DNA from: Bacillaceae bacterium IKA-2
GTDB taxonomy: Bacteria > Bacillota > Bacilli > Bacillales > Anaerobacillaceae
DNA: 64,000 nucleotides
Assembly: GCA_031761875.1 (NCBI GenBank)
Contig: CP134492.1
Coordinates: forward strand, 3,224,001-3,288,000
Direction: 5' to 3'
The stretch's first letter is position 1, and each line of letters starts with the position of its first letter. Of the stretch, positions 25,741-29,700 are shown piece after piece. The notes under the pieces are model-generated. The model was not told the DNA's origin and made no database searches. It saw nothing but the letters and a program-made list of their open reading frames with translations. A program made the translations under genes and the position numbers.

Positions 25741-26739
25741 TTACCAATCTAATCCAAATTCAGCGTAAACTGCTTTATTTTGATCTTGATACTTTGATCC
25801 AATTTGGTAAAAACCAGTATCACGTAATACTTGCTTAGCATCTTCTGATTTTAATACCCAGTCTAAGTAGTGAAGTTTTAATCCTTCTGGCTTACCATTT
25901 ACATAGAAGAAAAGTGGACGAGCGATTGGATATAATCCTTCATTAACGTTATCTTCATCGAATGGCGTGTAATATTCACTATCTTCGTCTAAGGCTACAT
26001 CAATTGCATTAATACCATCAATATAACCAATACCGATATAACCAATTGCATTTACTTCCTGTGAAATAGCTTCACGAATGGCTGATGAACCAGGCATAAA
26101 CATCGTACCTTCTGCAAAATCTTCTCCATCCATTACATTTTCGTTAAAGTAAACGTAAGTACCTGAATTTGATTGACGAGAATAAACAGTTATTTCTCCA
26201 CCGTCTGCCCAACCTACGTCAGCCCAGTTAGTAATCTTTCCTACAAAAATATCTTTAACTTGAGCCAATGTTAATTGTGATACAGGATTATCATTATGAA
26301 TGGCAACCGCTAAGCCATCTTGACCAACAATAAATTCATAAGCAGTAGCACCATTTGCTTCCGCATCATCCAATTCTTCTTGTTTCATCGATCGAGACGA
26401 TTGAGCAATATCAACATTATTGTTAATCATTGCTGCAACACCAGTTCCAGATCCACCACCAGTTACTGCTAAGTTTCCATTTTCGTTAGCGTTATCCATG
26501 TAAACTTCAGCAAATGCTTGACCTAAGTTAACCATTGTGTCTGAACCACGAATATCTAACATTCCAGCTGGTAATTCTTCCTTAGTGTCCTCTTGAGTTG
26601 TTGATTCTACAGGATCCGCTTGACTATCTGTTGATCCCTGTTGACTTTCACTTGCCACATCCTCATTTGAACCACATGCTACAGCAAAAATCATAACTGC
26701 TCCCAAAACTAGAAATAAGAAAAACTTTTTTGCACTCAC
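25741..26739 (-). CDS. pstS: Phosphate-binding lipoprotein PstS
   Basis: 332 residues. The lipoprotein signal ends in AVACG (Cys22). The mature part has the PBP-like fold with phosphate-contact motifs: RGSDTMVNLGQAF, GGGSGTGVAAMINN, SRSMKQEE and RQSNSGTYVYF. It captures phosphate outside the membrane and delivers it to PstCA. It is first in the operon, with PhoP boxes upstream. Confidence 0.96.
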   Translation of the reverse strand: MSAKKFFLFLVLGAVMIFAVACGSNEDVASESQQGSTDSQADPVESTTQEDTKEELPAGMLDIRGSDTMVNLGQAFAEVYMDNANENGNLAVTGGGSGTGVAAMINNNVDIAQSSRSMKQEELDDAEANGATAYEFIVGQDGLAVAIHNDNPVSQLTLAQVKDIFVGKITNWADVGWADGGEITVYSRQSNSGTYVYFNENVMDGEDFAEGTMFMPGSSAIREAISQEVNAIGYIGIGYIDGINAIDVALDEDSEYYTPFDEDNVNEGLYPIARPLFFYVNGKPEGLKLHYLDWVLKSEDAKQVLRDTGFYQIGSKYQDQNKAVYAEFGLDW

Positions 26740-26809
26740 TGATAATTTCCTCCCTTTATTTAAGCTTACTATTTAAGATAAGGTATTTTGTTTCCCTATC
26801 TCAATTGCT

Positions 26810-26874
26810 AGTATAGTAGTTGAATGTTAAGGTGATTTTAATTTCATGTAAATTGTTTGTAAATGATTTGTAAA
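26810..26874 (-). promoter_or_regulatory. PhoP-box array and -10 of the pst operon
   Basis: On the minus strand TTTACA occurs at 26869-26874, 26858-26863 and 26847-26852, exactly 11 bases apart. A weaker TTAAAA lies at 26836-26841 and TTAACA at 26825-26830, all in the same 11-base phase. A -10 TATACT follows at 26810-26815. This is the arrangement recognised by PhoP in Bacillus: direct TTHACA repeats one helical turn apart replacing a -35. The pst operon should therefore be induced by phosphate starvation. Confidence 0.85.
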
Positions 26875-26926
26875 GGTATAAACGATTTTATTTGATATTA
26901 TGAAATATACTTATGTATAAAAGAAA

Positions 26927-26966
26927 AAAACACTCTTGAAGCCAATTTTGGCTTCAAGAGTGTTTT
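26927..26966 (-). terminator. Strong terminator upstream of the pst promoter
   Basis: AAAACACTCTTGAAGCCAA and its exact reverse complement with a two-base loop, then TTTTTTTCTTTT on the minus strand. It protects the pst promoter from minus-strand read-through. It was probably the terminator of the metallo-hydrolase gene before the IS110 insertion. Confidence 0.9.
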
Positions 26967-26972
26967 AAAAAT

Positions 26973-27021
26973 GCGGTGTCTACCCCAAGTGCGGTGCCTG
27001 ACACCATGTGAATTTTTCGCA
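26973..27021. repeat. REP-like repeat GGTGCCTGACACC
   Basis: A partial unit (GCGGTGTCTACCCC) followed by the full unit GCGGTGCCTGACACCATGTGAA and TTTTTCGCA. The 13-mer here equals the sequence that can be rebuilt at the IS110 insertion point. Confidence 0.8.
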
Positions 27022-27179
27022 ATATTACTGTGATGTCAACGATTTTAATTCACAATCTTCACTATTTGGTGTCAGCGTACTATGTCAATTAGTTTTTTCT
27101 AAAAATTAAACAAACTTAATAAACTCATGTAATAATATACAAAAAAATCCAATAAGCAACTGACAGAAAGCTTATTATT

Positions 27180-27390
27180 GAGCCTTTCTCCTCTCGGACT
27201 TGAAAAGAACCTTAACCTCGTTTTTCATACTACAGGGATACAACCTGGTTAGTTCAGGATTTTATCTTAACGTACAATTCGTATTTGTAGGACGAGGTAA
27301 ATCATGCTGACACTCGAGGTCTACAGCCTCCGGCACCGAATCGATTTTCCCTCAGTCCCAGAGGAGGAGACTCATATTTTTACTGTTATT
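27180..27390 (-). ncRNA. Candidate bridge RNA of the IS110-family element
   Basis: Non-coding stretch 3' of the transposase. On the minus strand it can fold into two stem-loops. The first has outer arms AAATC/GATTT and inner stem GAGG/CCTC; its internal loop shows CGGTGCC on the 5' side and GTGTCAG on the 3' side. The second is closed by ACCTCGT/ACGAGGT with inner CTACA/TGTAG and CCTG/CAGG. The loop sequences of the first match what is needed to pair with both halves of the target GGTGCCTGACACC. Position 3' of the gene agrees with the IS1111 group. Folding was done by eye. The donor loop could not be matched to the element ends. Confidence 0.55.
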
Positions 27391-27393
27391 TCA

Positions 27394-28794
27394 CTATGCT
27401 GCACTAATGATTCGAGAAAACTCCGACATTTTTGTATGTCGTAACTTTGCTTTCATCATTCGTAAATACTGGTAAGACTCATCATTTGTCTGATACACGG
27501 TTCGATTCGTAAGCATCGCAAATGCTATTCGAATGAACTTATTTCCTAAGGCAATGTACGCTTTTCTTTGATGTTTGCCTTTCGCTCTGAGGTTCTCGTA
27601 ATACGGACGTACATCTTTATTGTGCTGTGCTAAGCTCTTTCCAATATTATAGACGACATAGCGTAAATTCTTATTTCCTTGTTTCGATATTTTTCCATAG
27701 AACCCTTCTAGACCCCCTGATTGAATGACAATTGGATTGGTTCCTGCTTTTTTGATAATCTGCCCTGCATGCTCAAAGGCCAGTACATCGCCTACCTCAC
27801 AGTAGAATTCCGCTGCCGTTGTCACTCCAATTCCTGGAATACTGAGAAGGAGACGCCCATCTGTTTCTAATAAAATACGCTCAATTTCTCGATCTAACAC
27901 CTTTATATTGGCATTCAGATTTCGAAAGTTTGGTAAGGCTAGCTTTAGTAATAGTAGCTCAGCTCGAACGTCTCTTTTAGGCCTGCATAGGCTTTCCTTA
28001 GCGATATATAACAGGTTCTTAATGGTTAAATCTCGTAACTTCAAATTATGTTCAATCGATAGGTTTCGAAGATCTTCTTCACTCATTGATAGAAGATCTT
28101 CTGGGTGCGGGAAGTTTTCCATAAAAAAGAGGGAGGACTTGCCCCAAAAATCACTAAATAATTCTACTTTATTTGGCGTATGACCATTTACTATAACGTG
28201 CCCTTGGAACTCTCTCCAAATTTTGTCCATTAACGTCCGGATCTCTACCTTGACTCTGGATCTCTTTCTAACTTCACTCCTACGTGCTCTCGTTAACGTT
28301 ATTAACTCTTGATGAGTTCCCGTCGGCAACTTACTCTCCGTCCCTTTATTTTGAATAATGACTTGGGCAATAGCCTTGAGATCGAGGTCATCGGTCTTAG
28401 TCCAGTTCAACGAACTTGATCTTTCTTCGTGTGTCGTTGCCGCATTGATAATCGTTACACCGTATCCTAAAGCGCCTAATTCCCTCACAATATCCTCATA
28501 GTAATGCCCCGTTGCCTCAATACCAACAAAAATCCGCTCTGCGTCAACTTCCTTGCTTGCATGCTCGATCTTTTCGTGAAGTTGGCTAATACCTTTTTTA
28601 TTAACACCAAAAAATGTAGGTTTCACTAGTACATCACCAAAATAATTACACACCATCGCTTTCTGATAAAACTTCGCTGCATCAATGGCTACAATTAATA
28701 CTCGCTCCAGATCTGTACCTCTTAGCTCAGATCGGAATTGACTTCCTTTTCTTCCTCTAATATTATTAGACTTAGATTTATGTTTTTGCCCCAT
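27394..28794 (-). CDS. IS110-family transposase (DEDD recombinase)
   Basis: About 466 residues from ATG 28794 (GGAG ten bases upstream); the frame is open to ATG 28926, which has no ribosome binding site. The N-terminal RuvC-like DEDD domain shows VAIDAAKFY (Asp), VGIEATGHY (Glu) and KTDDLDLKAIA (Asp pair). The C-terminal Tnp domain has LLSIPGIGVTTAAEF and the Ser-bearing segment NPIVIQSGG. These enzymes insert without target duplication of usual length, guided by a bridge RNA. Confidence 0.92.
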   Translation of the reverse strand: MGQKHKSKSNNIRGRKGSQFRSELRGTDLERVLIVAIDAAKFYQKAMVCNYFGDVLVKPTFFGVNKKGISQLHEKIEHASKEVDAERIFVGIEATGHYYEDIVRELGALGYGVTIINAATTHEERSSSLNWTKTDDLDLKAIAQVIIQNKGTESKLPTGTHQELITLTRARRSEVRKRSRVKVEIRTLMDKIWREFQGHVIVNGHTPNKVELFSDFWGKSSLFFMENFPHPEDLLSMSEEDLRNLSIEHNLKLRDLTIKNLLYIAKESLCRPKRDVRAELLLLKLALPNFRNLNANIKVLDREIERILLETDGRLLLSIPGIGVTTAAEFYCEVGDVLAFEHAGQIIKKAGTNPIVIQSGGLEGFYGKISKQGNKNLRYVVYNIGKSLAQHNKDVRPYYENLRAKGKHQRKAYIALGNKFIRIAFAMLTNRTVYQTNDESYQYLRMMKAKLRHTKMSEFSRIISAA

Positions 28795-28929
28795 GTGACT
28801 CACGCTCCAATTTTGTAGTTTGTGATGAGGCTTCCCGTCAGGTAGTTTTATCTTACTACATGTAGTCGCTGGGGTCTTTTTTTGTCCTTTTTTCTCCTTT
28901 CTCCTCTTTAAAAGATCTTTCGACATTTA

Positions 28930-29700
28930 TTATTTCATACACCAGGCACCTTGTGAATTTTGCACACTCAATTCATATGTTAAACCTTTTCTCGCTAAAG
29001 CTACTTCGCCTGCAAAAATTGATTTTGCTTCTTTGATTAGTTGTTGATGATCTCCAAAATGGGGTAAGTGGGTAAGGATGAGCGTCTGTACATTTGCTTG
29101 TTTGGCGATCGTTGCTGCTTCGAGACTTGTCATATGACCATATTGCTTAGCATCTTGGTCAGCATAGAAACTTGTTTCGCTAATGAGAATATCGGCATCT
29201 TTTGCAAAAATACTAAAGTCAGGTTTATAACTACTATCAGCTGTGTAAACAATTACTTTACCAGCAATTTCAAAGCGCATTGCAAAGCATTTCGCTGGAT
29301 GATCTGTTTCAAGAAAAGTAATTCGAAATGGACCAATACTTGAATAATCTGATTCATTATAAATAAACGATAATACGTGCGGCGGTTTCGCTAACTTTTG
29401 AAATTCAGCTTGCTCATAAGGGTGACCATAAATAGCTAGGGGTTTGTCTGTATTTTTTAACTGTCGATCAACTAGACGACTATATTGAAGTGGGCCAATA
29501 TCTGCCCAGTGATCGTGATGATAATGTGAAATAATCACGGCATTAAGTTCTGCTAACGAACAGAAATTTTGCAGCTGCGATAAGGCGCCACTGCCACAAT
29601 CAATAAGTAGTTTAAAACCGTCATGTTCAAGTAAATAGCAAGATGTTGCTTCGTTTTTTTCAGGGTAGGCACCCCATTGACCAATGACTGTTAATTTCAT
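28930..29700 (-). CDS. Metallo-beta-lactamase fold hydrolase (YhfI-like)
   Basis: About 256 residues from ATG 29700 (GAGGTGG upstream). The metal site is SHYHHDHWADI plus ETDHPAK (His), TADSSYK (Asp) and LTHLPHF (His), the pattern of RNase Z/YhfI-type phosphodiesterases. The substrate is unknown. The last residues (SVQNSQGAWCMK) are unlike the family, which normally ends near GLTYEL. They come from a REP-like repeat and then from the end of the IS110 element, whose insertion replaced the original stop a few codons earlier. Confidence 0.85.
   Translation of the reverse strand: MKLTVIGQWGAYPEKNEATSCYLLEHDGFKLLIDCGSGALSQLQNFCSLAELNAVIISHYHHDHWADIGPLQYSRLVDRQLKNTDKPLAIYGHPYEQAEFQKLAKPPHVLSFIYNESDYSSIGPFRITFLETDHPAKCFAMRFEIAGKVIVYTADSSYKPDFSIFAKDADILISETSFYADQDAKQYGHMTSLEAATIAKQANVQTLILTHLPHFGDHQQLIKEAKSIFAGEVALARKGLTYELSVQNSQGAWCMK
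28942..28967. repeat. Right half of the REP-like repeat split by the IS110 element
   Basis: CCAGGCACCTTGTGAATTTTGCACA; its missing left half GGTGTCAG is at 27068-27075. It lies within the last codons of the metallo-hydrolase gene. Confidence 0.7.

Follow-up and report, generated by a model that had tools for sequence, protein, structure and literature searches.

The element and its insertion site

The window analysed here, a 64,000-nt stretch of contig CP134492.1 from Bacillaceae bacterium IKA-2, contains on its minus strand a complete IS110-family element of 1868 bp (27076..28943, with the left end at 28943 and the right end at 27076) in which an IS110-family recombinase gene is followed by a predicted structured RNA of about 200 nt. 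Its ends are set by comparison of the four full copies in this genome, which have different flanks further out and all lie between GGTG[C/T]CT and CTGACAC[C/T], giving the order left flank GGTG[C/T]CT, element GGTGTATGAAATAATAAATG ... TTGACATAGTACG, right flank CTGACAC[C/T]. Relative to the window copy, the others differ within the element at 0 (L002), 1 (L003) and 20 (L004) positions, and L003 has one further difference in its left flank. The CT core is present on both sides of all four copies, the IS110 trait of site-specific insertion around a short shared core. In the window the host targets, defined from the sequence and the copy comparison, are GGTGCCT on the left (28944..28950, minus strand) and CTGACACC on the right (27068..27075, minus strand), each including the core. 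The flanks of L001, L002 and L003 rejoin into GGTGCCTGACACC or GGTGTCTGACACC, and those of L004 deviate at the last base. The original prediction had placed the element at 27076..28967; its start holds, and the copy comparison moves its end to 28943. The proposal that the host halves rejoin into a repeat likewise stands, although the second half as then drawn, CCAGGCACC (28942-28950), took in the last two bases of the element.

The interrupted repeat is one of many. The genome, 4.42 Mb in size, contains 91 copies of the intact 13-mer GGTG[C/T]CTGACACC and 0 of the pattern read backwards, and what remains of the repeat beside the element (26990..27075) includes a second palindrome, GGTGCCTGACACC, at 26993-27005. 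Many copies are paired, 31-139 bp apart and mostly 53-108 bp by eye, and 17 of the 30 copies read for context have TTCACA no more than 12 bases upstream or TGTGAA no more than 24 bases downstream. The target looks like a REP-type repeat because palindrome copies flank one of the seven Y1 transposase matches in the genome: the gene at C1:4072232-4072567 has two copies on each side, and by coordinates the remaining six matches have none within 1 kb. We call this gene RAYT-like since it passes the Pfam Y1_Tnp cut-off and falls below the NCBIfam cut-off for REP-associated transposases (REP_Tyr_transpos, 60.4 bits with a cut-off of 80). Numerous palindromic copies, some of them beside a Y1 transposase gene, are the pattern expected of a REP/RAYT system.

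A neighbouring MBL-fold ORF continues across the repeat half and into the end of the element (28930-28950), and its last codons are thus supplied by the insertion. The orthologous empty site was sought beside this gene in six relatives of the genus, and none carrying the repeat was found; the five that reach far enough (L147-L151) have about 420 bases after the MBL-fold gene with neither element nor repeat, and the sequence of the sixth (L152) stops at the gene. Since these relatives show neither, the argument for an empty site comes from the 91 intact copies of the repeat at other positions in the genome.

The recombinase gene occupies 27394..28794 on the minus strand and encodes 466 residues from M45, the likely start within a 510-aa ORF (27394-28926); for most relatives at 42-55% identity, the alignment begins near residue 50 of that ORF. 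The product is a DEDD recombinase with the DEDD_Tnp_IS110 and Transposase_20 domains (PF01548 and PF02371; Pfam and NCBIfam), and its score of 186.5 bits against NF033542, where the cut-off is 140, places it in the IS110 family. A structure model from an alignment of 12 sequences (pLDDT 78.7, pTM 0.64) has as its 11 best PDB matches chains of the IS621 and ISCro4 bridge recombinases. A stem in the 5′ leader (28789..28874, minus strand; 28864-28874 with 28789-28800) would cover the start codon in minimum-energy folds. Such folding over the start codon was seen in the eight lineages folded, by minimum energy without a shuffle control and with the sequence changed among relatives; in one further lineage no ribosome site was found by the pattern used. 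In kind, the stem resembles the leader described for ISPpu9.

A predicted guide-bearing RNA downstream of the gene

The predicted bridge RNA (27180..27378, minus strand, about 199 nt) was delimited by an alignment of 13 lineages and their consensus fold. Covariance model R1 matches 27184-27378, and since it was built from this element family it is not an independent locator of the RNA. Among the 41 pairs of the common fold of the 13 RNAs, 20 show pair-keeping changes on both sides, compared to 4 to 10 after the partner has been shifted by one to three columns. The closing stem P1, formed by 27354..27366 (5′ arm) and 27188..27200 (3′ arm) on the minus strand, contributes strongly: 11 of its 14 pairs have both sides changed in one or more sequences. 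A scan of 26500-29500 with Rfam returned, at E up to 1, a single match far below its gathering score, and no family was reached.

The first internal loop holds the target guides between an outer stem and an inner one. Its outer arms are AAATC (27347-27343) and GATTT (27303-27299), and its inner stem-loop (27316..27330) pairs GAGG (27330-27327) with CCTC (27319-27316), all on the minus strand; double changes occur in four of eight pairs of the outer stem, and five of six pairs of the inner stem are invariant. The left target guide, CGGTGCC (27332..27338, minus strand), matches the left flank GGTGCC, and the right target guide, GTGTCAG (27307..27313, minus strand), is the reverse complement of the right flank CTGACAC, both covarying with the flanks across relatives. 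The original prediction had described this GAGG/CCTC stem flanked by the two guides inside AAATC/GATTT, and the elements lie where it put them, with correct guide coordinates. The outcomes that it had named as damaging to it did not appear: the alignment-based fold does not place the RNA elsewhere, copies with the same loop at unrelated sites were not found among the four full copies, and the element ends fall within the repeat, at its CT core.

The correspondence between guides and flanks extends across the family. We tabulated 46 insertions, 45 with a right flank and 40 with a left flank, from 23 genome-and-guide lineages with 19 distinct guide pairs. Omitted from this count were two partial genes (L011, L021), the second copy at L024 (assembly gap), a left-end remnant (L005), re-fetched instances of the same copies, L125 (inner stem off-pattern and no left end found) and L126 (target loop lost). 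Among the right guides tabulated, GTGTCAG, GTGACAG, GGGTCAG, GGGACAG, CGTTTAG, GCACAG and GACACAG face the flanks CTGACAC, CTGTCAC, CTGACCC, CTGTCCC, CTAAACG, CTGTGC and CTGTGTC, respectively. Scored over eight positions, two of which belong to the core and are largely imposed by the search patterns for guides and ends, the right flank matches its guide at 7 or more positions in 43 of 45 insertions and the left flank at 6 or more in 35 of 40. The weak right matches are L122 (5/8) and L123 (6/8); the poor left matches are L025 (4/8) and L003, L013, L017 and L135 (5/8 each). In L125, outside the table, the right guide matches the right flank over 7 nt by eye.

With the core left out, permutation of guides among lineages did not reach the observed score on either side in 100,000 trials. 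The right side scores 4.86 of 5 compared to 3.39 when shuffled (22 lineages, z 8.6) and the left side 4.21 compared to 3.30 (18 lineages, z 5.6), the lineages being related by descent and hence not fully independent draws. Shared descent of the element alone fails to explain the match, because every target belongs to the host and has a location of its own. Agreement between guide and flank thus exceeds chance on three grounds: the loop and flanks shared by four copies, the core-free covariation, and the compensatory changes in the surrounding stems. A target loop whose 5′ guide has the sequence of the left target and whose 3′ guide complements the right target, both covarying, is the defining arrangement of a bridge RNA, and the fit around a CT core proposed originally from the window alone is borne out by this wider comparison.

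A second loop carries shorter guides that match the element's own ends, as the donor loop of a bridge RNA does. The left donor guide, GTACG(TT) (27269..27275, minus strand), is the same as the right end of the element, GTACG. In 16 of 16 elements this guide equals the last five bases, which read GTACG (3), ATACG (11) or AAACG (2), and the free positions agree in all 16; the test is confined to the first two letters because the search pattern required ACG. The right donor guide, AACCAG (27245..27250, minus strand), has the reverse complement CTGGTT, to be compared with CT|GGTG at the left end, and across the 16 elements it is complementary to the core and first element bases over 4 to 6 nt. Its two free letters (GG, AG or AT in the element) track the end in the same three classes, the closing AG being imposed by the pattern. 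Given these guide, target and donor relationships, we are highly confident that the locus is an IS110-family mobile element using a bridge RNA whose coding sequence lies 3′ of the recombinase gene.

Relatives and placement within the superfamily

A protein search, with the window's own genome included in the counts, gave matches for 6 of 150 relatives at a threshold of 1e-60 and, at 1e-100, for 11 of the 397 genomes from the order; plasmids searched by tblastn at 1e-60 gave no match. A scan of named genomes with a close query returned only the two further loci of Evansella clarkii, which hold three copies at 77% identity. With the RNA model, matches came from 15 of the 397 genomes at the level of the order and from 6 of the 398 at the level of the class, the window's genome again being counted, and the RNA lies 3′ of the gene in every locus where both were read. 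Several loci depart from the complete form. L125, L128 and L132 have the RNA with a right end and no recombinase match in the 2.4-2.8 kb upstream, and appear to be bridge RNA copies that either stand alone or have decayed; L131 is at the edge of a contig. In L126 the target loop is lost from the RNA copy and the letters of the donor loop and closing stem remain. In L005, 59 bp at 1501-1559 are what is left of a related element's left end, inside a different repeat (of the GGGACAGGCACC type). At L024, in E. clarkii, two element copies stand head to tail separated by a run of N, which may be an assembly effect. Two copies in G268 (L025 and L031) have guides and sites unlike the REP type (AGTTT / CTAAACG), and by eye both sit just before hairpin sequences.

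Repeat content was compared with guide type in 11 genomes by counting two repeat types, five of the 11 carrying other guides whose own repeat types fall outside this count. GTG[C/T]CTGACACC occurs 96 times in G000, the window's genome, and 57 times in G003, the two with GTGTCAG-guide elements, and in the other nine it occurs 11 (G001), 4 (G172), 1 (G023) and, in six, 0 times. GTGCCTGTCACC occurs 52 (G243), 28 (G023), 13 (G001) and 6 (G248) times in the four genomes with GTGACAG-guide elements, and 11 (G003), 2 (G128), 2 (G172) and, in four, 0 times in the other seven. The correspondence has exceptions: G003, with a GTGTCAG guide, has more copies of GTGCCTGTCACC (11) than G248, whose guide matches that repeat (6), and in G001 the 13 repeats of its own type are accompanied by 11 of the other. 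A degenerate pattern spanning several repeat types is found at 19 to 162 places per genome compared to 0 to 6 for the control.

The location of the RNA is that of the IS1111 group, as the original prediction noted. By far most elements of the IS110 group, though not all, have the RNA in the left end (PMC11187229, PMC11208160); here it follows the gene, in the right end, and the left-end, upstream position typical of IS110 is not seen. A standard IS1111-group element would combine this 3′ RNA with a top-strand match placed first and long subterminal inverted repeats. The long right end also fits (PMC11187229, PMC11208160). According to the portions of Siddiquee et al. (PMC11187229) bearing on this distinction, the IS1111 RNAs tested have the top-strand match first, the order is reversed in the IS110 member, and IS1111 elements have identifiable subterminal repeats.

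Scored by strand in the 17 lineages for which both flanks are available, the 5′ guide fits the top strand better in 13, ties in 4 and is never reversed, and the 3′ guide reads as the bottom strand in all 17; the IS4321 control instead has a bottom-like 10-mer first and a top-like 7-mer second. Thus the top-strand match 5′ of the bottom-strand match, in the sense in which PMC11187229 defines that order for IS1111, is absent here. Subterminal inverted repeats of 7-17 bp are likewise lacking: that of the window element is 4 bp, at the level of shuffled sequence (P 0.59), compared to 11 bp in the IS4321 control, although 4 of 13 lineages do reach 7 bp (P 0.014-0.055). The 12 relatives group together as one clade (support 100/100) in a tree of 27 rows, apart from IS4321 and IS621, so that the tree does not unite the clade with IS4321, and the deep forks are weak (support 67-68, where long branches meet). 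An attempt to place the clade more deeply failed on these forks and on the presence of a single row, IS4321, known as IS1111. A standard IS1111 element is therefore very unlikely; the likeness is limited to RNA location, because the guide order and the missing long subterminal repeats are IS110-like. Protein binding sites are often palindromic and the target is nearly so, but the idea that the recombinase itself reads the palindrome, with the loop resemblance a relic of captured flank, is scarcely credible given that covariation links both guides to both flanks, with the same orientation and register as in a bridge RNA, that the stems around them are kept by compensation, and that the donor guides covary too.

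On balance, we favor a reading in which these elements represent a third architecture of the IS110 superfamily, with a right-end bridge RNA, IS110 guide order, no long subterminal repeats and a recombinase clade of its own, and in which the guides have been repeatedly retuned to the common REP-type repeat of each host. If so, the family would provide a natural series of reprogrammed bridge RNAs.

Proposed mechanism and relation to known systems

The insertion site, element ends, core, guides, their covariation with target and donor, RNA fold and recombinase family can all be read from sequence comparison, and they suggest the following pathway. The first RNA loop would select GGTG[C/T]CTGACAC through its 5′ guide, which has the sequence of the left half, and its 3′ guide, which complements the right half; the selected site, with the CT core in its middle, would be the host's REP-type palindromic repeat, available in 91 intact copies. 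The two shorter guides of the second loop would bind the joined element ends, and the recombinase would swap strands at the shared CT core. The element would thereby exit as a circle and then enter another copy of the repeat, in keeping with the position of all four genomic copies at the same type of site and with the earlier proposal of a bridge RNA that homes to an interspersed palindrome as IS621 does to REP sequences. The right-left junction of the circle would read TAGTACG-CT-GGTGTATG. On GGTGCCTGACACC and GGTGCCTGTCACC targets, recombination would be expected to follow the right guide of the RNA supplied, be it the window RNA or that of E. clarkii.

The RNA would have to be expressed, perhaps from a promoter created at the circle junction. 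A −35-like TTGACA in the right end (27083..27088, minus strand) would lie 18 nt before a −10-like AATAAT in the left end (28934-28929) in the predicted circle, as a match to consensus. The combination TTGACA-18 nt-AATAAT is present at the joined ends of 3 of 13 lineages, the window's included, and TTGACT or TTGACC lies 17 nt before TAGTAT in 8 of 13; L036 has only TTGCCA-18-AATAGT and L009 has no match. Promoter and terminator scans gave values near shuffled means.

The locus is a bridge-RNA element of known kind with a variant layout and an unusually clear natural series of guide changes. These changes occur with matched new targets in relatives from the same order and class, and the longer recombinases could be tested as programmable tools. 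Because the clade separates RNA location from guide order, it is also relevant to how the RNA passed from one end of the element to the other. Downstream location of the RNA alone is not new, since elements of IS110 type that have a non-coding region downstream are mentioned by Siddiquee et al. (2024, PMC11187229); these share with the present family the IS110 type and the 3′ non-coding region, and the passage of that paper that mentions them describes neither guide order nor targets. A literature search on four target motifs, covering few subscription papers and no bioRxiv, returned only papers whose titles point to unrelated subjects.

Compared to IS621, as presented in the relevant sections of PMC11208160, the elements share guide order, the CT core, target and donor internal loops, the recombinase fold and REP targeting; they differ in having the RNA 3′ of the gene. 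Pairing of the right target guide extends over 7 nt here and over 4 in IS621, within the 4 to 7 nt that the same account gives for the loops' 3′ sides among orthologues (PMC11208160). The recombinase is 140 aa longer than that of IS621, to which it is 27% identical over 216 aa. ISPpu9 of Pseudomonas putida also has a REP target. With the IS1111 group (IS4321, ISPa11, ISKpn4) and its seekRNAs, to the extent that they are set out in PMC11187229, the elements have in common the RNA 3′ of the gene, and with ISPa11 also the targeting of REP sequences, whereas the guide order of that group is reversed and its subterminal repeats are long.
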